Source of the DNA: a virus
Direction: 5' to 3' (one strand)
DNA length: 22,206 nucleotides
IMG/VR virus record: IMGVR_UViG_3300013126_000275
Coordinates: 1 to 22,206 of that record
Below the pieces are notes generated by a model. That model was not told the origin of the DNA. It was given only the letters and a program-made list of their open reading frames with translations, and did not search any database. Position numbers and translations under genes: made by a program. Shown here in pieces: positions 3,001-21,568 of the stretch. Numbering within the stretch: position 1 is the first letter of the stretch; each line of letters opens with the position of its first letter.

Positions 3001-6000
3001 TACGCTGTTAATAATACAAATGGTGTTGGTATTAATACTGTTATATCTTCAACTTCAGGAATAATAACATGTTATTTAATGACGCCAATCCTTGGATATT
3101 CGACCCCACCCTTTACTGTTGGTGATCAAATATATGTTGAAGGAATTGAAAATAAGGATTCTACCGGAACCGGATTTAATTCTCAAGATTGTGGATATAA
3201 ATTTTTTACAGTCACTAATTTCCAAAATACTAATCCAGCTATTTTAGAATTTAGTGTATCTGGATTTACAACTAATCCTGGTATAGCTAAAACTTCACAA
3301 TCTGCTTATGCTTCAATTATAAAATATGAAAATTATCCAAAATTTAAAGTTGAAACTTCATATTCAAAATTTAATATAGGTGAATTCTTACTAACAAAAA
3401 ATAATAGTCAAGATCAATATCAGCAAAGAGATTTAAAAATAACAGAATCTGGAGATGATTATATTAAAGTTGTTGGGACATATGAATTATCACAAAATGA
3501 ATTTATTCTTGGTCAATTATCCGGTTCTTTAGCAAAAATAGATAGTATTTTACCAAATTTTGGTCAATTTTCTATTAGATATGCTTTAAATAAAGACTAT
3601 CAATGGTCTAATGACGTTGGAAAATTAAATGTAGATTATCAAGTTCTTCCTGATAATGATTACTATCAAAATTTATCTTATACAGTTAAAAGTCCAATAA
3701 CTTATGAAGTTTTATCAAATCCCGTTAATAGGTTAGTACATGCTGCTGGATTAAAGAATTTTGCGGATACTGAAATAAAGACAATAACAAATGTTGGATA
3801 TTCAAATACTTCTAGCGATACAACTACTGTTGTTAGAGATATTTTAGATGAAAAGAGAGTAGATACTGTTAATTTTTATGATAATGTTTTGGATATTGAT
3901 ACAAATTCAACAAATAACACCACTAGATCTAAATTTTTAAAATTACAAAGTAAAGCTCTATCAGATTATATTGAGTGTAGAACCAATCAGGTTTTAAGGA
4001 TTGACAATTTTAGTAATCAATTTAGAAATAAAAATAATGTAACTGAAGGGTATGTGAATATTCTTGGGTATGATAACCAATTTTCAGAATTTTTAATTCA
4101 AACAAAAAATGATTCTGGAGATGAAATACAACTCACAGAATTATTGGTATTAAATGATTCTGATAATTCAGTTACTATTCAAAAATCATCTCTAAGTAAT
4201 ACAACTGAAGAATTGGGAGATATATCTTCATTTTTAGACTCTTTTGGAAATCTTTACTTAAGATTTACACCTAAAGATGAATTTGATACTGACTACGATA
4301 TTAAAGTATTAAGTTCCGAGTTTAATTCTACGATTAATGGAATAGGAACTCAAAGTATAGGGTTTAGTAATTTGATAGGAGTAACTAAAAATGTTGGTAT
4401 TGGATCTACAGAAATACTAATAGGTATATCAACGTCTTCAGTAACTTCAATATGTGGATATTTTCATATTTACAATCAAGTATCTAAAGAATCTGATTTT
4501 GTTGAAATGGAAATTGATCATGATGGTGAGAATGTTTATATTTCTGAATTCTATACAAATAATGGACAGGGATTTGTTGGTGGATCTATTGGAACATTTG
4601 GGGTTAATATTAACAGTGGCATTTTATCTTTAGATTATTCAAATAATTCAAATAATTTAATTTTAGTTAGAGGAAATATTACTAGTTTTGGATCTACTTC
4701 TATTGGTATTGGAACATATAGATTTAAAACTAACAGTCAATTGGATGGATCTGAAAGAAGTTTAAAAATTGAGTCAAATTATTCATCACAAAGTTCTATA
4801 GGGACTGTTTTTTCATTAGATAAGAGTTTAATATCATCTATCAAATCCTTAGTAAGAGTTTCTTATGGAAAAACAACCTCATTACATCAAGTAATGATGA
4901 TTCATGATGGTTCAGACATTTATGTTTCACAATATCCGTTTATTTCTGTAGGAAGTACTGGTGGATGTGGAATATTTTCAGGATCATATTCTGGATCTAA
5001 TTTAGATCTAATATTCTACCCTGATCAAGATATTACTGGAATTTACAATATTCAAAGTTTGAATAAAATATTTTACTCTGATACTGATACTCTTAATGAT
5101 CCACCAGATTTAAATTATGGATCTGTTAATCAAAAAATAGATCTTGCATTTTATAATGCTCCTAATAATAACAGGGTTAATAGATTAGATTTTAATTTGG
5201 AATCTAACCAGATTCCTATTTTTGCTAAAACTTTTGATCCATCTGACTCCGATATTTTAGATTTAGCAACAGGAATTTTTACGATAGAAAATCATTTTTT
5301 CAATACTGGTGAGAAATTAAACTACACACCAAATAGTAGTGTTATTGGATCAGGAATCACCAGTGTTAATATTGGAATAACAACTGTGTTACCATCAACA
5401 GTTTATGCCATTAAATTAAATAATAATCAATTTAAATTATCTACATCTTCTCAAAATGCTTATTCTGGAATTGGAGTAACATTTACCTCGTATGGATTGG
5501 GTAATCTACACCAATTAGAAATGACAAAAAGGTTGGAGAAATCAATAATTTCGATCGATGGTGTTATTCAATATCCAATTAGATATACGCCGTTATCGTA
5601 TAGTTTATCAGGCAACGGAGGACAAATTGGATTTGGAAACACTTATATCTCTGTTACTGGAATATCTTCCATTAAACCGACTGATATTATAAAAATTGAT
5701 GAAGAATATGTTAAAGTTGTTGCTGTAGGATTTGGAACAACATCTAGTGGTCCAATTGATAATGTTGGTATAACAACATTAATTCAAGTTGAAAGAGGTT
5801 TTGTTGGTAGTATAGCAACATCACATTTGGATTTGTCTCCTTTTAGAGTTTATAGAGGATCTTACAATATTAGCGGCAGCAAAATATTTTTCACTGAGCC
5901 ACCAAAAGGAGGATCTGATAATAATATTGATCCTAGTAATCTTCAAGAAGTATTTTCTTCGTTTAATGGAAGAGTATTTTTACAAAAAGACTATACAAAC

Positions 6001-8394: not shown

Positions 8395-9945
8395 ATGGCG
8401 GCAATTGTAACAGACCAATTTAGAATTTTAAATACGAGCAATTTTTTAGACTCGATTGATAATACTTCAAATTCTTATTACGTGTTTTTAAGTCTACCAA
8501 ATCCAAGCATTGTTGGATTTGGTAGAACTACTTCTTGGGACAGTAATACACCATATCCAACCGATGATATCAATTATTTGAATCATGTTGGTCAAACTAT
8601 GATATTTGGTAAAAAAGTAACATCGATAAATGCAAAAAGACTCATAAGAAGAATTGATTGGGCTAGAGGGACAAAATATGAAATGTTTAGACATGATTAT
8701 AGTTCTTCTAATCTTTCTCCAATAACGCAATCTACAAGATTATATGATTCTAATTATTATGTTATGAATAGCGATTATAAAGTTTATATTTGTATTGATA
8801 ATGGATCCTCAGGAATTAATACCACTGGCAATGCTTCACAAGATGAACCACTATTCACCGATTTAGAACCATCAAGAGCTGGTGAAAGTGGAGATGGATA
8901 TCTATGGAAATACTTATTTACAGTTAATCCAACCGATATCATAAAATTTGATTCAACAGAATATATTTCTTTGCCAAATAATTGGCAAAATTCAACAGAT
9001 TCCCAAATTGTTTCCATTAGAGATAATGGAAATTCAGAATTATATGAGAATCAAATTAAAAAAGTTTATATAAAAAATCAAGGATCAAATTACTCTGGAG
9101 GTCTTGGACAAGAAGTTGATATTATTGGAGATGGAACTGGTGGTAAAGTTATAGTTGATGTTGTAAATGGAAAAATTACAAATACAACAGTTTCATCTGG
9201 TGGTAAGGGTTATACGTATGGAATGGTTGATTTAGGATCAATAAATCAAAATTCTGCGGGAACTTATGCACATCTGATTCCAATAATTCCACCATCTAAA
9301 GGTCATGGTTATGACATTTATAAAGAGTTAGGATCTGATAAAATTCTTTTATATGCTAGATTTGATGACTCTACCAAAGATTTTCCAATAGATTCTAAAT
9401 TTTCTCAAATTGGAATCATTAAAAATCCAACTTCTATGGGTTCAACTTCAATTTACAGTGAGAGTCAGTTTTCTTCTTTAGCAGCAATTAAATTTTCATC
9501 AACAGGTGGGTCATTATCAATAGGTGATAAAATAGTTCAAAGTGTATCTACAGGTCAAGCTCAAGGTTATGTAGCATCATATGATTCAGAAACAAAAGTT
9601 GTTAAATATTTTAGAGATAGAAATCTATTTTTAAATCAAACAACTTTAGACCAAACTGACTATATTGGAATTACTACCGCATCTAAAGTATTTAATTTTG
9701 AATCAACAGCAAATTCAGTTACTTCATCTGGTGGTTTTTCTGGATCAATAGATACTACATTTACAGGAATAACTACAAATCCATCAGGAACAAAACTTGT
9801 AGATTTAGGAGTACAATTTACAAATGGTTTGGCATCATCTGAAATAAATAAAGGATCAGGTGAAATAATTTACTTAGATAATCGTCCTACGATTACACGA
9901 AACTCTAGACAAAAAGAAGACGTTAAAATTATCCTGGAATTTTAA
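8395..9945 (+). CDS. gp8: Baseplate wedge subunit gp8, enlarged by two insertions
   Basis: In T4, gp8 is a wedge protein that joins gp10, gp7 and gp6 in the baseplate. The T4 gp8 framework is clear here: an N-terminal AIVTDQFR, a GRTTSW segment followed by PYPTDD (residues about 43-58), the IRRIDW segment (84-89), GDGYLWKYLF (166-175), the QIGIIKNP strand (338-345), and the C-terminal GEIIYLDNRP (489-498) with the final KIILEF. The protein has 516 residues against about 334 in T4. The excess sits in two places: residues about 222-290, a SGGxGY-type repeat, and about 355-485, which includes a GDKIVQSVSTGQAQGYV module. Both modules recur in neighbouring genes. The ATG is chosen because it starts the conserved N-terminus and follows the late promoter closely. 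The next gene starts 2 bp after the stop. Confidence 0.93.
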   Translation: MAAIVTDQFRILNTSNFLDSIDNTSNSYYVFLSLPNPSIVGFGRTTSWDSNTPYPTDDINYLNHVGQTMIFGKKVTSINAKRLIRRIDWARGTKYEMFRHDYSSSNLSPITQSTRLYDSNYYVMNSDYKVYICIDNGSSGINTTGNASQDEPLFTDLEPSRAGESGDGYLWKYLFTVNPTDIIKFDSTEYISLPNNWQNSTDSQIVSIRDNGNSELYENQIKKVYIKNQGSNYSGGLGQEVDIIGDGTGGKVIVDVVNGKITNTTVSSGGKGYTYGMVDLGSINQNSAGTYAHLIPIIPPSKGHGYDIYKELGSDKILLYARFDDSTKDFPIDSKFSQIGIIKNPTSMGSTSIYSESQFSSLAAIKFSSTGGSLSIGDKIVQSVSTGQAQGYVASYDSETKVVKYFRDRNLFLNQTTLDQTDYIGITTASKVFNFESTANSVTSSGGFSGSIDTTFTGITTNPSGTKLVDLGVQFTNGLASSEINKGSGEIIYLDNRPTITRNSRQKEDVKIILEF

Positions 9946-9947
9946 AA

Positions 9948-12900
9948 ATGCCACAAAAGACTAATTTAAATATTAATCCATATTATGATGATTTTGAATC
10001 AAAAGATAATTTTTATAGGGTATTATTTAAACCAGGATTTCCTGTCCAATCCCGTGAGTTAACATCTTTACAGTCGATTTTACAAAATCAAATAGAATCA
10101 TTTGGAAGCCATGTGTTTAAAGATGGCTCAATGGTCATACCTGGCAGTATAAATTATGACCCACAGTATACTGGAATTAAAGTAAACCCACAACATCTTG
10201 GTATAGATGTATCATTATATTTAAAAAACTTGGTTGGAAAAGTAGTTCAAGGACAAAATAGTGGAGTTACTGCGAAAATTGTCAATTATTTAATTCCGCC
10301 AGATAAAGATATTGAATATCCAACTTTATATTTAAAGTATCTAGAATCGGATTCTAATTTTTCATTTTCAACTTTTGAAGATGGTGAAGTATTAATAACT
10401 CAGAATAATATTACATATGGGAATACTACAATAAATTCTGGAGATACGATTGCTACTCTTATAGATTTTGATGCTTCTTTTACTGGATCTGCTGTTGGAA
10501 TTACAACTGGAGTATATTTTTTAAGAGGTCATTTTGTTAATGTTGAGCAAGATACTTTAATTGTTTCACCATACACAAATGATCCATCTTATCGTGTTGG
10601 ATTAACAATTACAGAGGAAATTGTAAATGTAGGTATTGATAGTTCACTTTATGATAATGCTAAAGGATTTTCAAATTTTGCAGCCCCTGGTGCGGATAGA
10701 TTAAAAATTTCTACTCGTTTATCACAAAAAGAACTGACGGATTTTAATGATAAAGATTTTGTTGAATTAATTCATTTAGAAAACGGTTCTATTAAAAAAT
10801 TACAAGATAAATCACAATATTCTACTATTAAAGATTACTTTGCAAAAAGAACATTTGAAGAATCTGGAGATTATGCGGTAGATAAGTTTAATGTTGAAGT
10901 TTCAAATTCACTTAGCGATAACATATCAAATAAAGGGTTATATTTAAATACACAAAAAACCGATCAAGGGAATACTCCTAGTGAAGATTTAATGTGTGTT
11001 AAAATTTCTCCAGGAAGAGCATATATTAGAGGATATGATGTTTCGACAACATCAACAGTTGTTTTAGATGTAGATAAGCCTAGAGATATACAATCTTCAC
11101 CATCAACATTAGTCCCATTTAATATGGGAAATAGATTGAGAGTTAATAATGTATTTGGAACACCATTTATAGGAGTTGATAGTAATAACAATACAGTCGA
11201 TCTTTATAGTCAAAGAAGAAATTCCACAACCAGTGGTACAGGAACTTTAGTTGGAAAAGCAAGAATTTATTCCTTCTCAATTGCTGATTCGGATTATTCT
11301 TCATCTTCTTCAGAGTGGGATTTATATTTGTTTGACGTACAAACATTTACTGTATTAAATTTAAATGAAACAACCTTAATTGGAGATTGTCCAGAAACAT
11401 CATTTATCAAAGGTTTAAGTAGTGGAGCTACTGGATATGTTATAGGATCTCCTAATGGATCAAGTATAACAATTAATCAAACTAGTGGAACTTTTATAAC
11501 AGGAGAACAAATTTCAATAAATGAAACTACGACTATATCTAGAGTTATAAAATCCTATAAAGCATATAACGTAGAAGATATTAAATCAATTTATCAAGAT
11601 TCATCTTCATTAGGACTAGCAACAGACTTTGTAGCTGATACGGTTCTCCAAAGATCGATTCTTTCAAAATTTAGTATAATAGATCAGTTAAAAATTGATA
11701 CTTCTGGAGTTGCTGTTTGTCCTGGGAAAACATTCACAAATAGTGGAATTAGAACGGAAGCAATTATTAGGTATCAAATATCAGGATTATCGGCAGAAAC
11801 ATTTAATAGAGTTTCATCTATTTCTTCTGACGGAACAACCTTACAATTAGCAACTGTTCCAACAGTTTCTGGTGTATGTAATGGAGCTTTACCAGGTAGT
11901 GATGTTTTAACAACATTTAGTATTGGCACACCTCAACTAGTTAATCAAGAAGATGCTTCATTATATGCAAATCTACCAAATGAGAACATTTCTTCGGTAG
12001 ATCTGTCAGATTCTAATTTGTTAATTTTTGAACAACTTACTGGTCAAACAACTAGTTCTAGTGGATCTTTAACTGTTAATGTTTCAGCAACAGGTATCAC
12101 TAGTTCATTTTTTGAAAATTATGATACTGAAAGATATGGTTTATTTTATAGTGATGGGACAGTTGCCGATCTATCTTCTGATAAATTTAATTTATCGCAA
12201 AATGGAACTCAACTAACTATTTCTGGATTAAGAAGTAGTCAGTCTAATATTACATTAAACGTAAGTGTTAGAAAAAATTCTATTAAAAATAAAGCAAAAA
12301 GTTATATCAGAAGTGAAAAATTAGTTGTAAATAAAACTAGTTCTGGAATTTCTACTGAAATAAGTGGTTTAACAACAAGTAATTACTATGGTCTTAGAGT
12401 AAATGATAGAGAAATTTCATTAAATGTTCCAGATGTTGTTAAAATTGTTGCTGTTTATGAATCAATAAATTCATCATCTCCTACGCTTGATAGTTTAACT
12501 TTTGTTTCTGGTTTAAATCTCGATACTACTTCAATTTTAGGAGAAAAGATTATAGGGCAAGAGAGTGGATCTATAGCTCAATTAGTTACTAGATCATCTT
12601 CAACTCAAGTTGAAATTGTTTATTTAAATCAAAATAGATTTTCAATTGGAGAGACAGTAACTTTTGAAGAGTCAAAAATTCAATCTAATTTAGTATCAAT
12701 AGGAAAAGGAAACTATATTGATTTAACCAATAATTTTGACCTAGATAAGGGGCAAAAGGATCAATATTATGATTATTCAAGATTGATTAGGAAATCAAAT
12801 GGAGTTACTCCTTCTAAACAACTTTTAATAATATACGATTGCTATCAAGTTCCATCCAATGATAGTGGAGATCTTTATACAGTAAACTCGTATACTAAGG

Positions 12901-15900
12901 AAAGATTTGAAAAAGACATCCCATTATTAAAAAATGGAAAAAGAGTTTCTGATACTTTGGACTTTAGACCAAGAGTAGATAAATTTTTATCAACATCATC
13001 ATCGCCATTTGCTTTCAACAATAGAAATTTTGCAGCATCTGGTATAAATCCAACAAGAATACTAAATCCTGGTGAGAGTTCAATATTATCATATAATTTC
13101 TATCTACCAAGAATTGATAAAGTTGTAGTTGATAAGTTTGGTAGATTTTCTGTCATTAGAGGAACTTCTTCACTAAATCCCAAGGATCCAACAAATGTTG
13201 AAGAAGTTATGAATATTGCTCATATAAGTCTTCCAGCATACTTATATGACCCATCAGAGTCTAAAATAACTCTCATTGATAATAAAAGATATACTATGAG
13301 AGATATTGGAAAACTTGATGATAGAATAGAAAATCTTGAAATAGTTACTTCACTTTCTTTACTAGAATTAAATACAAAATCTTTACAAATACAAGATGCT
13401 GATGGATTGTCAAGGTTTAAAAGTGGATTTTTCGTAGATGATTTTAAAAATAATAGTCTTATTAATTTGGGCGATCCTGATGCAAATTGTGATGTTAATA
13501 CTGAAGCAAAAGAACTCAACGTTCCTATAGATTTTTATTCACTAAAACCGGATTTATCACTTTCATCTTCATTAAACGAAGATACCTCAGACTATAGGAT
13601 GAATCTTCCATTATTGGACTCAAATGTTAGAAAAACCGGAGATCTGGTAACATTAAATTATGAGGAAAAAGGTTGGATAGAGCAACCATTAGCATCAAGA
13701 GTTGAAAATGTAAATCCATTTAATATTATTGAATATAAAGGATCTATTAAACTTACACCAGCTTCAGATAACTGGGTTCGTAATATTTTTGTTTCTGGTG
13801 GAACTAGAACAGAAACTGGTGGTTGGGATGGATCTTATGTAGAAGAAATACTAATAAGTAGTATTCCAGATCCTCATATGAGATCTAGAAACGTTGAATT
13901 TTTATCACTTGGAATTAAACCATTAACAAGATATTATCCATTCATAGACAGTGTTAGTGGAATTGATATTATTCCAAAACTTATTGAAATTACAATGTCT
14001 TCTGGATCTTTTGAAGTTGGAGAAACTGTTGATGGTTTCATCGGATCGCAAAGAGTAATTTCTTTCAGATCTGCTCAACCTAACCATAAATCCGGAACAT
14101 ATAATAATCCATCAAGAACTTATAGTGTTAATCCTTATAATAAATCTTCTACACTTGGTTCATCATACTCCGCCTCTTCGTCAGTCATAAATGTTGATAC
14201 ATCATCTCTTTCTGAAGAGGCACAAGGGAGATTTTCTGGTTATATAGCGGATGGAACTGTTTTAGTAGGAAGAACAAGTGGAGCTCAAGCAACAGTTTCG
14301 AATATTAGATTAATTTCAGACAATTGGGGCGATCTAATAGGTTGTTTCTTTATCAGAGATCCATTAGCATCTCCACCACCATTAATAAGATTAACAACTG
14401 GAACTAAATCTTTCAAATTAACTTCAAGTCTAACAAATGCAACTCCATTACCAGGTAGTCTATTAATTACTTCTGCTGAAACTACATATACAGCAACCGG
14501 AGTTATTAATACATTTTCTCAAACTACAGTCACAGTAAGAAGACCACCTCCACCACCACCTCCACCGCCACCACAACCAGCTGGTGGCGGTGGGAATAGA
14601 GGAGGAGGTAAAGATCCCCTAGCTCAAACATTTACAGTAGATGAAACTGGAGCATTTTTAACATCTATTGATTTATATTTTGCTAACAAAGATGAAAATG
14701 AAAAGGTTTATGTACAAATAAGAAATGTTGAATTAGGAACTCCAACTGGTCAGGTTGTTCAAGATTATGCTCAGGTTGAACTATTCCCAGATCAAGTTAA
14801 TATATCTAATGATGCTTCCATACCAACTAAAGTTACGTTCCCATCACCGGTTTATCTTCAACCCAATACTGAATATGCAGTAGTAGTTTTAGCACCAACA
14901 TCAGATTTATATGAACTTTGGGTAGCAAGAATGGGAGAAAAGACTGTAAATACACAGTCTCTTCCAGATGCTGAAAGTGTTCTTGTAACAAGGCAATACA
15001 TTGGTGGAAGCTTATTTAAATCACAAAATGGAACTATTTGGACAGCTAGTCAATTTGAAGATTTGAAATTTAAATTATATAAAGCGAATTTTACTTCAAC
15101 AAATGGTTCGGTATCTTTCTATAATCCAACATTAACATCATTAGATGATAATGTTCCATCCTTACCAAATAATTCAATTCGAACACTACCAAGAAAGTTA
15201 CAAGTAGGTATTAACACAGAATCTACTTCAATTTTTACATCTGGATTAAAAATTAAAAAACAAGGATCATCTGGTCCTAATGGAATTGTTGAAAAAATTG
15301 GAGGACGTTTAGCAACTTCTACTGCTGGTATCAATACAATAAGTGTTGGTACTGGATATTCAACCGGTTCTTTTTCAAATATTCCCCTTTATACAATTAC
15401 TGGATCTGGTAGTGGTGCATTAGCAACTGTCAATTTCCATAATAGTGGGTTAACAACCTCAATTATTACCAATTATGGTAATGGATATGCTGTTGGAGAT
15501 ATTCTAGGTATTACAACATCTAGTGTCACTAAAGGTAAAAACGCAAGAATTTCAATTACATTGATTAACGGAATTGATACTTTATATTTAACCAATGTTC
15601 AAGGAGAATCTTTTGCAGATTCAGATACTTTAGAATATTACAATGGATCATCTTATGTTGCTGCTGGAGCAACTGTTAGGGGGTCATCAAGTGTAATATC
15701 GAATTTATATGATGGAAGAGTTATTGAAGTATTCCAATATAATCATGGTATGCATCAAGATACCAATAAAATTGTTATTGATAATATTCAACCAAATACA
15801 ATTCCAACAACTCTTACCGCAAATCTTGTACTAAATGATTCAATCATTTCTGTAGCAAATACTTCTGTATTTTCAACCTTTGAAGGAATATCGACTTCCA

Positions 15901-17042
15901 GAGGATATGTAAAAATTAATAATGAGATTATTTACTATAATAGTATAGGATCTGGAACTCTTGGTATTGGGTCAAGAGCAAAAGATTTGTTACTTTCTGG
16001 AACAAGATCTCATGATATAAATTCTCAAGTATATAAGTATGAACTAAACGGTGTTTCTTTACATAGAATTAACACAACACATACTCTACCAAATGATTCG
16101 ATCTTAAAATCTTACAGAGGAATTGATAACTACCATTTACAAGTTAATAGATCTGACAGAAGTTCTGGACAGACTCAATTAAGCTTCACAAATGAAGAAG
16201 ATCTTGGTGGAGAAAATATTTTTGCCTCTCAAAATTTCCAATTCAATGGAATTATCCCACAATTCAATGTTTTGACTCCAAGTCAAAGCACAAAAGTATC
16301 TTCAGAAATTAGAACAGTTTCTGGAACAAGTGCAAGTGGATCTGAGATTTCATTTATTGATCAGGGATATGAATCTGTTCAATTAAACAATCCCAATTTC
16401 TTAAATTCAACTAGAATAGTTTGTTCTAAAGTTAATGAAACTGAATATTTAACTTCATTACCTAAGAATAAATCACTAACTGTTAGACTTGACTTATCAT
16501 CAACTGATTCTAATTTATCTCCGGTAGTTGATTTACAAACGTCGTTTGTAACATTAATTAGAAACAGAATTAATAGCCCAATTTCTAATTATGCTGATGA
16601 CCCTAGAACAAACTCAATTTCTGGAGATCCCCATGCGGCTGCTTATGTTTCAAATAAAATTAATTTAAAACAACCAGCAACTTCATTGAAAGTTTTTGTT
16701 GGTGCATATAGACATTCTTCTGCTGATTTTAGAGTTCTTTATAAACTTTATAAGGCAGATTCTAGTGAAATAGAACCAACATATGATCTATTCCCAGGAT
16801 ATGATAATCTTAAAGATACTGATGGTGATGGATTTGGAGACACTGTCATAGATTCGACAAAAAATAGTGGACTGCCTGATGCTTTTGTAAGAGCAAGTTC
16901 TGATGGTGAATTTTTAGAATATCAATTTAGTGTCGATAATTTAGATCCATTTACTGGTTTTGTAATAAAGATTGTTATGAATGGAACAAATGAATCTTAT
17001 CCTATAAAATTACAAGATTTAAGGGTAATAGCATTAGCATGA
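9948..17042 (+). CDS. Giant DUF4815-type virion structural protein (T4 genes 9-12 position)
   Basis: This protein has 2,364 residues. The N-terminal part fits the DUF4815 family of large phage structural proteins: NINPYYDDF, FPVQSRELTSLQSILQ, then YFLRGHFVNV, SYRVGLTITE, APGADRLKIS and GRAYIRGYDV within the first 400 residues. A second conserved block, RYTMRDIGKLDDRIENLE, lies near residues 1114-1131. Ten prolines (residues 1533-1542) and a glycine-rich linker lead into DPLAQTFTVDETGAFLTSID (from 1556), a beta domain typical of these proteins. SGGxGY, SGAxAxV and RGxxSH modules follow, then DTDGDGFGD (2290-2298) and the usual LQDLRVIALA end. It lies between gp8 and the neck genes, where T4 has gp9-gp12, so a baseplate-rim or fibre-attachment role is likely; the precise role is unknown. 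The 3' end overlaps the next gene by four bases (ATGA). Confidence 0.88.
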   Translation: MPQKTNLNINPYYDDFESKDNFYRVLFKPGFPVQSRELTSLQSILQNQIESFGSHVFKDGSMVIPGSINYDPQYTGIKVNPQHLGIDVSLYLKNLVGKVVQGQNSGVTAKIVNYLIPPDKDIEYPTLYLKYLESDSNFSFSTFEDGEVLITQNNITYGNTTINSGDTIATLIDFDASFTGSAVGITTGVYFLRGHFVNVEQDTLIVSPYTNDPSYRVGLTITEEIVNVGIDSSLYDNAKGFSNFAAPGADRLKISTRLSQKELTDFNDKDFVELIHLENGSIKKLQDKSQYSTIKDYFAKRTFEESGDYAVDKFNVEVSNSLSDNISNKGLYLNTQKTDQGNTPSEDLMCVKISPGRAYIRGYDVSTTSTVVLDVDKPRDIQSSPSTLVPFNMGNRLRVNNVFGTPFIGVDSNNNTVDLYSQRRNSTTSGTGTLVGKARIYSFSIADSDYSSSSSEWDLYLFDVQTFTVLNLNETTLIGDCPETSFIKGLSSGATGYVIGSPNGSSITINQTSGTFITGEQISINETTTISRVIKSYKAYNVEDIKSIYQDSSSLGLATDFVADTVLQRSILSKFSIIDQLKIDTSGVAVCPGKTFTNSGIRTEAIIRYQISGLSAETFNRVSSISSDGTTLQLATVPTVSGVCNGALPGSDVLTTFSIGTPQLVNQEDASLYANLPNENISSVDLSDSNLLIFEQLTGQTTSSSGSLTVNVSATGITSSFFENYDTERYGLFYSDGTVADLSSDKFNLSQNGTQLTISGLRSSQSNITLNVSVRKNSIKNKAKSYIRSEKLVVNKTSSGISTEISGLTTSNYYGLRVNDREISLNVPDVVKIVAVYESINSSSPTLDSLTFVSGLNLDTTSILGEKIIGQESGSIAQLVTRSSSTQVEIVYLNQNRFSIGETVTFEESKIQSNLVSIGKGNYIDLTNNFDLDKGQKDQYYDYSRLIRKSNGVTPSKQLLIIYDCYQVPSNDSGDLYTVNSYTKERFEKDIPLLKNGKRVSDTLDFRPRVDKFLSTSSSPFAFNNRNFAASGINPTRILNPGESSILSYNFYLPRIDKVVVDKFGRFSVIRGTSSLNPKDPTNVEEVMNIAHISLPAYLYDPSESKITLIDNKRYTMRDIGKLDDRIENLEIVTSLSLLELNTKSLQIQDADGLSRFKSGFFVDDFKNNSLINLGDPDANCDVNTEAKELNVPIDFYSLKPDLSLSSSLNEDTSDYRMNLPLLDSNVRKTGDLVTLNYEEKGWIEQPLASRVENVNPFNIIEYKGSIKLTPASDNWVRNIFVSGGTRTETGGWDGSYVEEILISSIPDPHMRSRNVEFLSLGIKPLTRYYPFIDSVSGIDIIPKLIEITMSSGSFEVGETVDGFIGSQRVISFRSAQPNHKSGTYNNPSRTYSVNPYNKSSTLGSSYSASSSVINVDTSSLSEEAQGRFSGYIADGTVLVGRTSGAQATVSNIRLISDNWGDLIGCFFIRDPLASPPPLIRLTTGTKSFKLTSSLTNATPLPGSLLITSAETTYTATGVINTFSQTTVTVRRPPPPPPPPPPQPAGGGGNRGGGKDPLAQTFTVDETGAFLTSIDLYFANKDENEKVYVQIRNVELGTPTGQVVQDYAQVELFPDQVNISNDASIPTKVTFPSPVYLQPNTEYAVVVLAPTSDLYELWVARMGEKTVNTQSLPDAESVLVTRQYIGGSLFKSQNGTIWTASQFEDLKFKLYKANFTSTNGSVSFYNPTLTSLDDNVPSLPNNSIRTLPRKLQVGINTESTSIFTSGLKIKKQGSSGPNGIVEKIGGRLATSTAGINTISVGTGYSTGSFSNIPLYTITGSGSGALATVNFHNSGLTTSIITNYGNGYAVGDILGITTSSVTKGKNARISITLINGIDTLYLTNVQGESFADSDTLEYYNGSSYVAAGATVRGSSSVISNLYDGRVIEVFQYNHGMHQDTNKIVIDNIQPNTIPTTLTANLVLNDSIISVANTSVFSTFEGISTSRGYVKINNEIIYYNSIGSGTLGIGSRAKDLLLSGTRSHDINSQVYKYELNGVSLHRINTTHTLPNDSILKSYRGIDNYHLQVNRSDRSSGQTQLSFTNEEDLGGENIFASQNFQFNGIIPQFNVLTPSQSTKVSSEIRTVSGTSASGSEISFIDQGYESVQLNNPNFLNSTRIVCSKVNETEYLTSLPKNKSLTVRLDLSSTDSNLSPVVDLQTSFVTLIRNRINSPISNYADDPRTNSISGDPHAAAYVSNKINLKQPATSLKVFVGAYRHSSADFRVLYKLYKADSSEIEPTYDLFPGYDNLKDTDGDGFGDTVIDSTKNSGLPDAFVRASSDGEFLEYQFSVDNLDPFTGFVIKIVMNGTNESYPIKLQDLRVIALA
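14544..14615 (+). other. Proline-glycine hinge in the DUF4815-type protein
   Basis: Ten consecutive proline codons (14544-14573) are followed by Gln-Pro-Ala, four glycines, Asn-Arg, three glycines and Lys-Asp. The segment separates the DUF4815-like N-terminal two thirds from the DPLAQTF domain. A rigid polyproline rod followed by a flexible glycine linker is most simply read as an interdomain hinge. Proline codons are a mix of CCA, CCT and CCG, so this is not a pure nucleotide microsatellite. Confidence 0.7.
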
Positions 17043-17239
17043 TTCCAGTAGAAGGGCATGAAAATCTCTTTAGAGATGAAAAATCAGGAGCAATTGTTAA
17101 TTTGGACACATATGGTTATTCACAATACATTAGAATGAAATCTGAAAAACAAAAACAAAAGGAAGAAATTAATCAAATTAAATCTGATATTGATGAATTA
17201 AAAGCACTTTTGCGGGAGTTAATTAATGGATCCAAATGA
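17039..17239 (+). CDS. Small coiled-coil protein, function unknown
   Basis: This 66-residue protein starts with MIPVEGHENLFRDEKSGAIV, a compact segment I associate with small conserved proteins of marine T4-like phages. It continues into a charged helix (residues about 34-63) with hydrophobic residues spaced as in a short coiled coil (I44, I47, I51, L54, L57, L58, L61). The ATG overlaps the stop of the giant gene as ATGA, which suggests coupled translation; an AAGGG at 17021-17025 could assist. The 3' end overlaps the next small gene by 14 bp. There is no signal peptide or membrane segment. Position among tail genes suggests a minor virion or assembly protein, possibly oligomerising through the coiled coil, but no specific function can be assigned. 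Confidence 0.8.
   Translation: MIPVEGHENLFRDEKSGAIVNLDTYGYSQYIRMKSEKQKQKEEINQIKSDIDELKALLRELINGSK
17214..17218 (+). promoter_or_regulatory. Strong ribosome binding site GGGAG for the 56-codon gene
   Basis: GGGAG sits 7 bp before the ATG at 17226, inside the last codons of the upstream 66-residue gene. It decides the start of the small downstream gene and is a main reason to believe that this short frame is translated. The surrounding 9-mer TTGCGGGAG occurs again before the ATG at 17478. Confidence 0.6.
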
Positions 17240-17396
17240 TATTACTTTAGAAAATATGAATAAATTATTTGAATATGAAAAACAAGCTAGAGTTATTGAC
17301 AAATTGAGTTTTGAAGAACTTAAAAACTTTGCTAAATTTTACTGCAAATTATACTTAAAACAGCAAGAAGTTATTTCTTCCCTAGGTACTATTTGA
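17226..17396 (+). CDS. 56-residue helical protein, weakly NblA-like
   Basis: ATG at 17226 opens a frame of 56 codons ending with TGA at 17394-17396. It overlaps the upstream gene by 14 bp in another frame and has a good GGGAG at 7 bp spacing. The product starts MDPNDITLENMNKLFEYEKQ and continues LSFEELKNFAKFYCKLYLKQ, ending SSLGTI. It reads as two amphipathic helices joined by a short turn near residues 24-28. Size, helix pattern and the xTLE...YE.Q...LS.E.....Y signature resemble NblA, the small adaptor that directs phycobilisomes to Clp protease and is carried by some cyanophages. The resemblance was judged by eye only and the helices are low in complexity, so a small tail-module protein of unknown function is at least as likely. 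Confidence 0.72.
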   Translation: MDPNDITLENMNKLFEYEKQARVIDKLSFEELKNFAKFYCKLYLKQQEVISSLGTI

Positions 17397-17399
17397 AGT

Positions 17400-17435
17400 T
17401 ATAAATATATTTTAGATCCTGATATTGTATAAATC
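17400..17435 (+). promoter_or_regulatory. T4-type late promoter region before the fibre genes
   Basis: This lies in the only sizeable gap of the window (17397-17477, 81 bp). An exact TATAAATA occupies 17400-17407, and a one-mismatch copy, TATAAATC, occupies 17428-17435. Either would give a leader of about 40-70 bases before the ATG at 17478. Together with the element before gp8, this suggests that the fibre and neck genes can be transcribed separately from the baseplate genes. I see no convincing hairpin terminator in the gap. Confidence 0.65.
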
Positions 17436-17462
17436 TCGTGGTTATGTGAATTTAAAACTTGC

Positions 17463-17467
17463 GGGAG
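17463..17467 (+). promoter_or_regulatory. Ribosome binding site GGGAG for the 78-residue fibre-type gene
   Basis: GGGAG ends 10 bp before the ATG at 17478, within TTGCGGGAG, the same 9-mer that precedes the ATG at 17226. The spacing is slightly long but acceptable. Confidence 0.5.
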
Positions 17468-17477
17468 CTACTACCTA

Positions 17478-17714
17478 ATGGCAGAAATAAAAGTTAGAGT
17501 TGGACAAAAAAATGCTGTAAAAGTAATATCTTCTTTAGCAGGAGCGCAAGCTCTTTCTTTGCCAGAATTATTGGATGTTGATTCAACTTCATTCACAAAT
17601 TTATATGATGGTATGGTTTTAGTTTATAACGCTTCCATTAATAAATGGCAAGCAACATTAAATCTAACCCCAGGAAATACACAAAATCTAGACATTAATG
17701 GGGGTACCTTTTAG
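17478..17714 (+). CDS. Small fibre-type virion protein (78 residues)
   Basis: The protein starts MAEIKVRVGQKNAVKVISSL and carries LLDVDSTSF...LYDGMVLVYNASINKWQA (residues about 31-59). The 'DVD...DGxVLVYN....W' pattern is common near the N-termini of phage tail-fibre and fibre-adaptor proteins. It ends in DINGGTF. It is the first gene after a late promoter and is followed at once by a Mtd_N-like gene: its TAG stop shares one base with the GTG start of that gene (TAGTG). The GGG-GGT codons near its 3' end supply a plausible ribosome binding site for the partner. It occupies the slot before gp13 where T4 carries wac, so a neck-whisker or fibre-attachment role is possible. That role is inferred from motif and position. 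Confidence 0.78.
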   Translation: MAEIKVRVGQKNAVKVISSLAGAQALSLPELLDVDSTSFTNLYDGMVLVYNASINKWQATLNLTPGNTQNLDINGGTF

Positions 17715-18247
17715 TGGCTAGTATTATAAGAGTTAAAAGGTCTACAGGTACAGTAGCACCAGTATCTTTAAATTATGGTGAATTAGGATATACTGATGGT
17801 CAAGCACTAACTAATAATGGTGGTGGAAGACTTTTTATTGGTGATCAAAATCAAGTACCAAGAGAGGTCGGTGGTAGATATTACACTGATATGTTTTTAC
17901 AACCTGGAAAGGTTGCTGGAAAACAAAATAAAACAACTCCTTCAAATGGATTTGTTCCTATTCTTGATATTAATAGAAAGATTGATGAATGGAATGTTGC
18001 TGGTTATTTAAATGTATCTGGAATTTCTACATTTACAGGGACTCTTGATATAAATGCTGCAGCATATTTTGATTGGGCAGCATCTGGAATACATACAAGA
18101 GGATCTGCGTATTTCGATTCAACTGGAAAACTTACTAGTACTTTGAGTCCAGAAATTGAATATACCAACACTTCAAATTATATTTTAACTACAGACGCTT
18201 CCAATGTTCCAGTGTGGACTAGCGTTTTAGACGGAGGATCTTACTAA
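17714..18247 (+). CDS. Short tail-fibre/whisker-type protein with Mtd_N-like N-terminus
   Basis: The start is GTG at 17714, chosen because it opens directly on the domain and follows GGGGG (17700-17704) at 9 bp. Residues 4-60 match the N-terminal pattern of major-tropism-determinant and related fibre proteins: IIRVKRSTGTVAPVSLNYGE, then RLFIGD, then GGRYYTDM. In that family this domain forms a trimeric base attached to the virion. Residues about 98-135 are repetitive and fibre-like (GISTFTGTLDINAAAYFDW), and the end carries YILTTDASNVPVWT, a motif seen near the ends of many phage fibre proteins. At 177 residues there is no receptor-binding head, so it is more likely an attachment or whisker protein than a host-range fibre. 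It ends DGGSY, echoing the DINGGTF of its neighbour. gp13 starts 1 bp downstream of its stop. Confidence 0.82.
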   Translation: MASIIRVKRSTGTVAPVSLNYGELGYTDGQALTNNGGGRLFIGDQNQVPREVGGRYYTDMFLQPGKVAGKQNKTTPSNGFVPILDINRKIDEWNVAGYLNVSGISTFTGTLDINAAAYFDWAASGIHTRGSAYFDSTGKLTSTLSPEIEYTNTSNYILTTDASNVPVWTSVLDGGSY

Positions 18248-18248
18248 A

Positions 18249-19100
18249 ATGAAACCAGGAAGTCGTCAAGAACTTATAGATTATTGTCTAAGGAGACTAG
18301 GATCTCCCGTATTGGAAATAAACATCGATGATGATCAGATTGATGATTTAGTCGATGATGCTTTACAATATTTTCATGAAAGACATTTTGATGGTGTCGA
18401 AAGAATGTATTTAAAATACAAAATTTCAGCAGATGATATAAAGAGGGGAAAAGCAAAATATGCCGGAGGTTCTTTTACATCAAATGCCGGAATAGTCACA
18501 ACAAGTGGAATATCTACTTCTTCTGGAGTTACTAAAACTTTTAATTTTTATGAAAATTCCAATTATATTCAAGTTCCAGATTCAGTTGTAGGAATTGAAA
18601 AAGTCTTTAAATTTGACACTAGTTCTATTTCTGGCGGGATGTTTAGTATCAAATATCAGTTATTTTTAAATGATTTGTATTACTTTAATTCTGTTGAATT
18701 ACTTCAATATGCTATGGTTAAATCATATGTAGAAGATATAGATTTTTTATTAACAACAGATAAGCAAATACGATTTAATAGAAGGCAAAATAGATTATAT
18801 TTAGATATTGATTGGGGTTCTCAAACTGAAGATCACTTTATAGTTATTGACTGCTATCGTATTTTAAATCCAAATGATTTTACAAAAGTCTATAATGATA
18901 GTTTTCTCAAAAAATATTTAACAGCATTGATGAAGCGCCAATGGGGGCAGAATCTAATTAAATTTAGAGGGGTAAAACTTCCAGGTGGTGTAGAACTTAA
19001 TGGTAGAGAAATATACGAAGATGCAGAAAAAGAACTGGAGTCTATTAGAGAAAGAATGTCAATGGATTATGAATTACCACCTTACGATTTTATTGGATAA
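18249..19100 (+). CDS. gp13: Neck protein gp13 (head completion)
   Basis: In T4, gp13 forms the ring between the portal and gp14 that closes the filled head and makes the tail-docking site. The N-terminus GSRQELIDYCLRRLGSPVLE, then IDDDQIDDLVDDALQYF and HFDGVERMY, match the helical start of gp13. The C-terminal half has FLKKYLTALMKRQWGQNLIK, LPGGVELNGREIYEDAE and the end YELPPYDFIG, all strong gp13 signatures. Length is 283 residues against about 309 in T4. A Gly/Ser/Thr-rich stretch near residues 73-93 looks like a variable loop. A GGAGG at 18233-18237, inside the end of the upstream gene, precedes the ATG by 11 bp. The stop overlaps the gp14 start by one base (TAATG). Confidence 0.95.
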   Translation: MKPGSRQELIDYCLRRLGSPVLEINIDDDQIDDLVDDALQYFHERHFDGVERMYLKYKISADDIKRGKAKYAGGSFTSNAGIVTTSGISTSSGVTKTFNFYENSNYIQVPDSVVGIEKVFKFDTSSISGGMFSIKYQLFLNDLYYFNSVELLQYAMVKSYVEDIDFLLTTDKQIRFNRRQNRLYLDIDWGSQTEDHFIVIDCYRILNPNDFTKVYNDSFLKKYLTALMKRQWGQNLIKFRGVKLPGGVELNGREIYEDAEKELESIRERMSMDYELPPYDFIG

Positions 19101-20518
19101 TGGCACTTAATCCCTTCTTTTTACAAGGATCACCAAGTGAGCAAAGACTTGTTCAAAGTCTAATAAATGAACATTTAAAAATGTTTGGTGTTGAAATTAC
19201 GTATATACCTAGAAATTTTGTAAATAAAAAAACAATTATTGAAGAGGTGCAGTCTTCGAGATTTGATGATAATTATTCTATCGAGGCTTACATTAATAAT
19301 TATGAGGGATATTCTGGTGGTGGAGATATATTAACAAAATTTGGTATGAGTTTAAGAGATGAAGTTACACTATCAATATCAAAAGAAAGATTTGAAGATT
19401 TTATATCCCCATTTATTTCTGGGGCAAGTAATAATTATGAAATTGAATTATCTACAAGACCATGGGAGGGGGATTTAATTTATTTTCCATTAGGACAAAG
19501 ATTATTTGAAGTAAAGTTTGTCGAACATGAACAACCTTTTTATCAGTTAGGAAAATTATATGTTTATGAATTAAAATGTGAATTATTTGAATATGAAGAT
19601 GAAGTTATCGATACTTCCGTTTATGAAATAGATTCTCAAGTTCAAGATGAAGGATTTATTACAACTTTAAACTTAATTGGTATTGGAAGAACAGCGCAAG
19701 TAACTCCAATACTCGGTAGTGGATATATTAAATCAGTAACTTTAATTAATGATGGTAGTGGTTATACATCAACCCCACGAGTAGAAATAACACCATCACC
19801 CTCAGGTAATGCAGCACATAACGCATCTGCTGTTGCTATAACTACGGTAAAAGGCGGAGTTTATTCAATAAAAGAAATTTTGTTTACAAATGCTGGAATA
19901 GGTTATACAATAGTACCATCAATTTCAATTGTTGGTGGTAACGGAACAGGAGCAATAGCTACATGTGATATTAACACAAATGGATATGGTATAGTTAAAT
20001 CTACAATAGATGATGTTGGAACTGGTTATGTAACAGAAAATGTTCCTTTGATTACTTTTAGTGGTCCAGTTGGATCTGGTTCTACATCTACAGGTATAAT
20101 TAGAATCGATCAAAATATCCAAGGAATCTCGACAATTTTAATTAGAAATGCTGGATATGGGTATAGTATTGGAATTACTCCAACTGCAACTATTAGCAGT
20201 CCAACAATAATTACGGGAATCGGCACATTTAATTTTAATGAAATTATTATTGGTCAATCTTCAAAAACTAAGGCAAGAGTTAAATCGTGGGATAAGGATA
20301 CTAAAGAACTTAAAATTTCTTTTGTTGGCATAGGATCAACAACATCAGGATTCATTAATGGTGAAGTTATAGTCGGAACATCTTCGTCAGCAAGATATAC
20401 AGTAAAAAAATACACTCATGATAACATTTATGATAAATATGCTCAGAATGATGAAATAGAAGAAGAAGCGGATGACCTTCTAGATTTTTCAGAATCAAAT
20501 CCATTTGGGAATTATTAG
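19100..20518 (+). CDS. gp14: Neck protein gp14 with a large beta-repeat insertion
   Basis: In T4, gp14 is a hexameric neck protein between gp13 and the tail terminator gp15. Residues 1-165 match gp14: GVEITYIPRNFV (30-41), YINNYEGYSGGGDILTKFGM (64-83), RDEVTLSIS (86-94), EGDLIYFPLGQRLFEV (123-138) and QPFYQLGKLYVY (145-156). The short tail ESNPFGNY parallels the T4 end. The protein has 472 residues against about 256 in T4. The extra part, residues about 195-440, holds four GxGY repeats (near 208-235, 255-290, 297-325, 340-368) followed by two GxxSxxAxxxV modules (380-440). The same modules occur in gp8 and in both giant proteins here. The insertion lies before the acidic C-terminus and may decorate the outside of the neck. 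gp15 starts 3 bp downstream. Confidence 0.94.
   Translation: MALNPFFLQGSPSEQRLVQSLINEHLKMFGVEITYIPRNFVNKKTIIEEVQSSRFDDNYSIEAYINNYEGYSGGGDILTKFGMSLRDEVTLSISKERFEDFISPFISGASNNYEIELSTRPWEGDLIYFPLGQRLFEVKFVEHEQPFYQLGKLYVYELKCELFEYEDEVIDTSVYEIDSQVQDEGFITTLNLIGIGRTAQVTPILGSGYIKSVTLINDGSGYTSTPRVEITPSPSGNAAHNASAVAITTVKGGVYSIKEILFTNAGIGYTIVPSISIVGGNGTGAIATCDINTNGYGIVKSTIDDVGTGYVTENVPLITFSGPVGSGSTSTGIIRIDQNIQGISTILIRNAGYGYSIGITPTATISSPTIITGIGTFNFNEIIIGQSSKTKARVKSWDKDTKELKISFVGIGSTTSGFINGEVIVGTSSSARYTVKKYTHDNIYDKYAQNDEIEEEADDLLDFSESNPFGNY
19697..20207 (+). repeat. Four GxGY beta repeats inserted in gp14
   Basis: Four units of about 40-45 residues follow the pattern 'strand, xxxGxGYxxxP, strand, Gly-rich turn': GSGYTSTPRVEI, GIGYTIVPSISI, GTGYVTENVPLI and GYGYSIGITPTA. 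The T4 gp14 core has no such repeats as far as I know. The repeats are visible at protein level; the DNA copies are diverged. Confidence 0.7.
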
Positions 20519-20521
20519 TAA

Positions 20522-21568
20522 ATGTTAGGAACTTATTTTTATCACGAAATTATTAGAAAAACTGTAATTGGTTTTGGAACCTTATTTAATGATATACACA
20601 TTCGCCATCAAGATAAAAATGGTGCGGATTTAACTGATATTAAAGTTCCCATTGCTTATGGTCCAACACAAAAGTTTTTAGCAAGAATTGAACAGCAACC
20701 AGAATTAAATAAATCAATAGCTATTACTTTACCGAGGATGTCATTTGAAATGACTTCTTTACAATATGATTCATCAAGAAAAGCAGGTGTAACACAAACA
20801 TTTAAAGCATCTGATGGGACAAATTTAAAAAAAGTTTTTTTACCTGTTCCATATAATATTGGATTTGAGTTAAATGTTTTATGTAAACTTAATGATGATG
20901 CTCTTCAAATTGTAGAGCAAATTTTACCATTTTTTCAACCAAGCTTTAATATAACAATAGATTTAGTTAATTCAATAGGTGAAAAAAGAGATGTCCCAAT
21001 TGTATTGGATAATATTTCATTTCAAGATGATTATGAAGGAGATTTTTCAACCAGAAGAGTTTTAATTTATACATTTACATTTACAGCAAAAACGTATCTA
21101 TTCGGACCTATTGCTAATTCTACTGATGGTCTTATTAGAAAAGTTCAAGTTGATTATTATGCTGATACTAATAGAGAAAATGCAAAAAGAGAGTTAAGAT
21201 ATACTGTCACACCTAAAGCACTAAAAGATTATAATAATGATAATACATCTACTTTGTCAGATGACATTACTAAAGAAACTACATTAATTGGAGTGAATGA
21301 TAGTACCGTATTTGGTGTTGGAAATAGAATAACTGTAGATAGTGAAATTATGTATGTAAAAGAAATTCCAAATAATTCTCAAATAATTGTTATAAGAGGA
21401 TACAATGGATCTACAATAACATCACACTTAAAAAGCTCATCAATCGATTTATTGACAAATATTGATGATTCTTTGATTGATATTGATGATGATTTTGGAT
21501 TTAGTGAATCTATAGTTTCCTATACAGATTCAAGATCTTTTAGTCCAACGTTAAAAACTGATCTATAA
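20522..21568 (+). CDS. gp15: Tail sheath terminator gp15 with an inserted C-terminal module
   Basis: In T4, gp15 caps the tail sheath and joins the tail to the neck proteins gp13 and gp14. Signatures include the N-terminal YFYHEIIRK and LFNDIHIRHQ (residues 5-30), VPIAYGPTQKFLARI (42-56), ITLPRMSFEM (68-77), DALQIVEQILPFFQPSFN (126-143) and TRRVLIYTFTF (178-188), followed by GLIRKVQVDYYADT. The protein has 348 residues against about 272 in T4. The extra segment is residues about 243-312, containing GNRITVDSEIMYVKEI and VIRGYNGSTITSH. This is a module also present in both giant proteins of the window. After it comes an acidic end, DDDFGFSES. The ATG follows GGGA at 11 bp spacing and lies 3 bp after the gp14 stop. 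Confidence 0.94.
   Translation: MLGTYFYHEIIRKTVIGFGTLFNDIHIRHQDKNGADLTDIKVPIAYGPTQKFLARIEQQPELNKSIAITLPRMSFEMTSLQYDSSRKAGVTQTFKASDGTNLKKVFLPVPYNIGFELNVLCKLNDDALQIVEQILPFFQPSFNITIDLVNSIGEKRDVPIVLDNISFQDDYEGDFSTRRVLIYTFTFTAKTYLFGPIANSTDGLIRKVQVDYYADTNRENAKRELRYTVTPKALKDYNNDNTSTLSDDITKETTLIGVNDSTVFGVGNRITVDSEIMYVKEIPNNSQIIVIRGYNGSTITSHLKSSSIDLLTNIDDSLIDIDDDFGFSESIVSYTDSRSFSPTLKTDL

Follow-up and report, generated by a model that had tools for sequence, protein, structure and literature searches.

Small modules shared among virion proteins of T4-like cyanophages and their variation in the neck proteins gp14 and gp15

Introduction

Promiscuous beta modules on the virion proteins of phages are already known, and what is unusual in the case described here is mainly their location in the head-closure and sheath-terminator proteins. 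Ig-like domains, in the account of Fraser et al. (2006) relayed by PMC6949934 and PMC11476376, are small beta modules that occur in varied number in exposed virion proteins and are lacking in some relatives, and weak carbohydrate contact or stabilisation has been proposed for them. The cyanophage modules are alike in these traits, but they are also hosted by two proteins of the head-tail joint, the head-closure protein and the sheath terminator. A second comparison is offered by the BACON arrays of crAss-like phages, in which a tail-associated protein carries as many as eight beta domains in tandem, their number varying by lineage; in the eight-unit array of crAssphage the positions form separate clades (PMC6949934). 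The cyanophage array differs in belonging to a neck protein and in having related units elsewhere among the virion proteins of its phage. Mosaicism of protein fragments, in which fragments are shared by unrelated phage proteins, is common in fibres, spikes and baseplates, and much of it is ancient (PMC10684548); the cyanophage modules differ in reaching the head-closure and sheath-terminator proteins, and in that their gain and loss could be counted.

Neck proteins are usually seen as conserved plumbing. In the T4 virion, residues 178-256 of gp14 bind residues 203-245 of gp15 (PMC12270204; PDB 9mkb, 9lu4-9lu7), and the phage analysed here shares the T4 cores, with core, C-terminal arm and joint in the T4 order; T4 itself has none of the three module families, A, B and C, described below. 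A literature search for a neck or tail structure from the Kyanoviridae found no paper.

Results

Gene order and naming

The window, that is the whole stretch of DNA analysed, is a virus record of 22.2 kb which gene order and best relatives identify as the T4-type tail operon of a P-SSM2-like member of the Kyanoviridae. Its genes follow the order giant gp7, gp8, DUF4815 protein (named VrlC in some records), gp13, gp14, gp15 and gp16, identical in P-SSM2 and S-SRM01. The protein first called YHYH (1-8373) is the C-terminal part of a giant truncated by the window edge; the giant of the relatives, 5195 aa long in P-SSM2, is annotated as gp7 or baseplate wedge initiator in P-SSM2, S-SRM01 and S-SM2. 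This naming is in conflict with PMC7029224, because cyano- and pelagimyophages are described there as lacking T4 gp7, with VrlC in its place.

Two further features of the operon were noted. The DUF4815 giant carries a ten-proline run near its middle (14544-14573), followed by a glycine-rich stretch. Between DUF4815 and gp13, two short ORFs with a 1-base overlap occupy 17478-18247; the N-terminal half of phrog_13853 (151 aa) matches the first of them and its C-terminal half the end of the second, whose start matches a different family; the region is a mosaic of short fibre-like pieces.

Three module families recur in several virion proteins

Searches of the window proteins with HMMs yielded three module families, A (SGGxGY, ~40 aa), B (SGA, ~30 aa) and C (RGxxGTxxxH, ~70 aa), located as listed in Table 1. 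Family A was detected in gp14 (four units), gp8, gp7 and weakly DUF4815; B in gp14 (two units), gp8 and DUF4815; and C in gp15, DUF4815 and gp7. The A content of giant gp7 consists of the unit at residues 2540-2581 and three short units. The SGGxGY repeats that a sequence-only reading of this DNA had reported in gp8, gp14, the DUF4815 protein and the YHYH protein were recovered by HMM in each of these proteins, in DUF4815 weakly (8.7 bits), and the module positions given there proved correct to a few residues, except for a B unit placed near 11400 in DUF4815, which was not detected.

Table 1. Cores, modules and flanking elements of the tail-operon proteins, with positions in the window.
Feature	Residues	Position	Strand	Evidence
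Giant gp7, C module	1880-1951	5638..5853	+	HMM 34 bits
Giant gp7, partial A unit	2170-2186	6508..6558	+	HMM 7.5 bits
Giant gp7, A unit	2540-2581	7618..7743	+	HMM 25 bits; gp14-only model 3.5e-5
Giant gp7, partial A unit	2589-2607	7765..7821	+	HMM 6.2 bits; gp14-only model 4e-4
gp8, A unit	221-257	9055..9165	+	HMM 18.8 bits
gp8, second SGGKGY stretch	261-290	9175..9264	+	visual likeness, sub-threshold HMM
gp8, B unit	377-406	9523..9612	+	HMM 30 bits
DUF4815 giant, weak B unit	99-114	10242..10289	+	HMM 5.8 bits, iE 0.009
DUF4815 giant, B unit	865-893	12540..12626	+	HMM 26 bits
DUF4815 giant, B unit	1436-1469	14253..14354	+	HMM 32 bits
DUF4815 giant, weak A unit	1800-1828	15345..15431	+	HMM 8.7 bits
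DUF4815 giant, C module	1963-2032	15834..16043	+	HMM 78 bits
gp14, core (T4 head-closure/neck protein)	1-180	19100..19639	+	PF11649 4e-31
gp14, four A units	210-249, 257-293, 300-335, 343-384	19727..20251	+	HMM 27-38 bits each
gp14, two B units	380-409, 421-442	20237..20425	+	HMM 44, 26 bits
gp14, conserved C-terminal helix and ESNPFG tail, 3' of insert		20435..20515	+	weak T4 counterpart
gp15, core (tail sheath stabiliser/terminator)	1-236	20522..21229	+	PF16724 4.5e-90
gp15, C module	249-309	21266..21448	+	HMM 54 bits

The HMMs were refined over ~90 loci and replaced seeds taken from the window only, which were over-fitted. With reversed and, separately, 20-fold shuffled window proteins as chance controls, the best scores were 5.4 bits for A and 6.7 bits for C, and none was obtained for B. 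The real A and B units of gp8 and gp14 scored 19-44 bits, and the three strong C modules 34-78 bits. Models built from gp14 only or gp15 only reached the giants, or gp8 in the case of B, weakly, with E values of 5e-3 to 4e-5, above the controls; in single-sequence searches the gp14-only A model missed gp8 and DUF4815, and the gp15-only C model missed DUF4815. Profile-profile comparisons, whose family members had first been collected with the joint models, linked gp14 with gp7 (2.5e-13), DUF4815 (1.4e-8) and gp8 (5e-7) for A, gp14 with gp8 (1e-8) and DUF4815 (4e-9) for B, and gp15 with DUF4815 (2.9e-15) and gp7 (2.4e-16) for C, and all cross-family and control-segment pairs stayed at or below 60% probability. 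In the independently built PHROGs, the gp14 insert matched tail-fibre, baseplate-wedge, hub-lysozyme and giant structural families.

Convergence of look-alike glycine-rich beta repeats without common origin might be suspected from A and B, which are short and simple, from the composition of the A array (64% G, S, T, I and V) and from the proteins that the gp14-only A model misses. We judge this very improbable, given that the shuffled and reversed controls fall short of the real scores, that the profile-profile values lie between 5e-7 and 2e-16 and every cross-family or control pair stays at 60% probability or less, and that C is long, at ~70 residues, and clear. The presence of the module families in several host proteins of the phage is confirmed.

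In the Pfam scan and in the PDB fold search with the whole-chain gp14 and gp15 models, the modules found no counterpart among carbohydrate-binding families or solved structures. The confident PDB matches involved the cores only, which resembled neck or terminator cores of T4 and of other phages, and there was no confident match to an Ig fold. In the Pfam scan, gp8, gp14, gp15 and the giants matched no Ig or Big family, and BACON (PF13004) was not matched.

Modules as insertions in gp14, gp15 and gp8

The three proteins exceed their T4 counterparts by 216 (gp14, 472 vs. 256 aa), 76 (gp15, 348 vs. 272 aa) and 182 residues (gp8, 516 vs. 334 aa), in agreement with earlier estimates of about 215, 75 and 180. 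The accompanying claim that this excess consists of shared modules applies to most of it in gp14 and gp15, and to only a part of it in gp8 (~70 residues by HMM).

The gp14 core matches T4 gp14 chains both by sequence (6e-24) and by fold (5e-9), and alignment with T4 and with relatives lacking A placed the insert between this core and the conserved C-terminal helix. The extra length is mostly made of modules also present in the two giants. AlphaFold modelled the insert as largely beta, with pLDDT mostly 84-98, whereas the core was poorly modelled as a monomer. In a fold search against predicted viral proteins, the gp14 model retrieved giant structural proteins of cyanophages, with E values near 1e-7. 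It also matched enlarged neck or head-closure proteins of the Tenacibaculum phage PTm1 (619 aa) and of an Ackermannviridae entry (549 aa), hinting at neck-protein enlargement beyond the cyanophages.

The gp15 core was likewise matched by fold to T4 gp15 (1.5e-16), and alignment with T4 and module-less relatives placed the C module after this core and ahead of a conserved DDFGF tail. Neither A nor B was detected in gp15 by HMM; its excess is indeed a module shared with the giants, but one belonging to the third family, C, which the earlier description lacked. This module was predicted, with pLDDT 91-96, to be largely beta.

The third protein, gp8, is the T4 baseplate wedge protein (PF09215, 8.9e-14 over both ends), and its N and C ends align with those of T4 gp8. 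Of its inserted residues, ~70 match modules by HMM, or ~100 when the second SGGKGY stretch is included, and the rest are specific to gp8. Among 89 sequences, A was found near residue 220 in 70 and B near residue 380 in 74, and this near-constancy suggests a structural and not an accessory role for the insert.

Variation of module content in the neck proteins

A units were counted in 304 loci with a complete gp14. Zero units were found in 75 of them, T4 included (~308 aa), four in 194 (~475 aa) and five to eight in 22 (542-857 aa), the remainder having two or three; at least one B unit is retained even in the relatives without A. An arrangement of A units in pairs (0, 2, 4, 8) was considered and dropped, because counts of 3 and 5-7 occur and depend on detection. 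The array evolves faster than the core, as identity to the window gp14 is 33-54% for array units vs. 72% for the core. The A2-type gp14 was mostly found in Synechococcus phages, in records that are highly redundant.

The closest gp14 pair with a two-unit difference is that of S-SSM4 (L088:19932-20855) and ACG-2014d (L087:19932-21095), whose cores are 93% identical. Their DNA identity is mostly 0.8-0.9 and falls to 0.55-0.7 around the block, and, because of this divergence, replacement of an allele would fit better than a clean insertion or deletion. In S-SRM01, an HNH-domain ORF lies between gp14 and gp15 (L085:21430-21957) and might drive the replacement of alleles there.

As for gp15, the C module was present in 200 of 310 loci (309-361 aa) and absent in the other 110 (≤284 aa). 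Mapped on the tree of the gp15 core, its state changes 7 times with T4 included and 6 times without it, and placement of the C-bearing sequences in one clade was rejected (p-AU 3.6e-6). Thus, the module has switched at least six times, by repeated gain or loss. Among the reference phages, A count and C state are independent of each other; P-SSM2 has four A units and no C, P-RSM1 lacks A but has C, and S-SSM4 has neither. The gp15 of S-SKS1 (L090:21474-22280) matches in three pieces with no annotated gene, probably through a frameshift in the record.

Of the pattern which the sequence-only reading had set against its own proposal, insertions present in all relatives and tracking the core phylogeny, gp8 shows a part, in its near-invariant insert; gp14 and gp15 do not show it, because their module content departs from the core phylogeny.

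Copies are inherited in place

Among gp14s with four units, the nearest unit in other phages was that of the same gp14 position for 563 of 595 A units, a conservation of array positions across relatives like that of the BACON arrays, in behaviour and not in membership. The A units of the window gp14 and gp8 scored 80-155 against orthologous positions and ≤50 against their own genome. In longer gp14 arrays, the first two units and the last one are recognisable, with the extra units between them. Trees of C modules, which comprise ~70 columns and are poorly resolved, separated the gp15 and DUF4815 modules by a 99% branch, with some gp7 modules among those of gp15, and each C module of the window was nearest to that of the same protein in other phages. 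Copies are thus inherited in a position-specific manner within each host protein, and the spread of modules among proteins is old, because copies are nearest to the same position or protein in other phages; the recent changes are gains or losses within gp14 and gp15.

These data bear on the proposal, also made from the letters of the window, that modules are repeatedly copied among the baseplate, neck and sheath-terminator proteins of one phage. Three families do recur in several proteins of one genome, and the sheath protein gp18 of S-CAM9 has a C module unseen in the other sheaths compared (see below). However, for ongoing copying the own-genome scores of the gp14 and gp8 A units are too low relative to the orthologous ones, the C modules cluster according to the protein that carries them, and the gp8 insert hardly varies. 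Position-specific inheritance largely refutes such copying for the lineage of the window, and we assign it a very small probability.

Distribution among virion proteins

When nine whole records were searched, A was found in the eight of Kyanoviridae and not in T4. Every A match in the eight cyanophage records for which the gene was looked up fell in a virion protein: gp14, gp7, gp8, the gp5 hub-lysozyme (S-SRM01, S-PM2), tail-fibre-like proteins (P-SSM2, S-CAM9), a PA14-domain protein (S-SM2) and a structural protein of ~6,800 residues (ACG-2014d). From these sequence matches, the modules appear confined to virion proteins. The gp18 of S-CAM9 (L093:32641-35295, 885 aa) carries its C module at residues 295-360; T4 gp18 has 659 aa.

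Discussion

Aligned to T4, the gp14 insertion falls inside the C-terminal arm (T4 178-256) and the gp15 insertion just after the stretch that receives this arm (T4 203-245), so both flank a single joint, because these are the segments that bind each other in the T4 virion (PMC12270204). If the rings are six-fold, as that of T4 gp14 is, about 24 A, 12 B and 6 C modules would surround the head-tail joint.

We propose that A, B and C spread long ago through the virion proteins of the Kyanoviridae, becoming a nearly fixed part of gp8 and in-frame insertions at the docking joint in gp14 and gp15, and that each copy has since been inherited in place. Turnover consists of gain and loss of units inside the gp14 array and of presence or absence of the gp15 module, to which allele replacement between phages probably adds, and copying from protein to protein within one genome is not the usual route. 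The modules would be displayed outward as accessory decoration, making weak contacts with polymers of the cell surface or of particles, like the Ig-like and BACON modules. They seem dispensable for assembly, because natural relatives lack them, and accessory surface decoration fits modules that are absent in close relatives, evolve faster than the core and appear confined to virion proteins. Against it speak the near-constancy of the gp8 insert and the searches of carbohydrate-binding families and solved structures, in which the modules found no match. We consider this account, from ancient spread to dispensable decoration, to have about an even chance of being correct; the common glycan-binding surface suggested from the letters of the window is a guess.

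The location at the docking interface could also be read mechanically, the gp14 array and the gp15 module clamping the head-tail joint or the first sheath ring, with copy number tuning stiffness and not adhesion. Both insertions align with the T4 gp14-gp15 interface, and for a sheath protein with extra Ig-like domains, a gain in sheath stability through these domains has been proposed (PMC11476376). However, 75 gp14 loci have no A and 110 gp15 loci no C, and since these include close relatives entirely devoid of modules, the joint works without them; the array moreover evolves faster than the gp14 core. Reinforcement of the joint is for these reasons unlikely.

As the joint is near the place of the T4 collar, the modules might alternatively hold neck or tail fibres and replace the gp13-fibritin collar of T4. 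The region between DUF4815 and gp13 has short variable ORFs (17478-18247), and the corresponding VrlC-gp14 region of pelagimyophages carries tail fibres (PMC7029224), but the independent variation of A count and C state among reference phages argues against such docking, and we find this quite unlikely.

Accessory decoration, our preferred reading, can be extended to the idea that the joint is an adaptive surface, in which a length-tunable adhesive array on gp14 and the gained or lost gp15 module would form a secondary collar binding host or particles, its makeup switching between close relatives and affecting attachment. We put this forward tentatively, as a rather doubtful extension.

The three families, for which Pfam has no name, would be useful for annotating the giant structural proteins of marine T4-like phages. 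In one viral family, the head-closure protein of abundant ocean phages extends from ~308 to >650 aa through a variable beta array. Since there are named isolates with and without each module, these natural variants allow the effects of decoration on attachment and stability to be tested.
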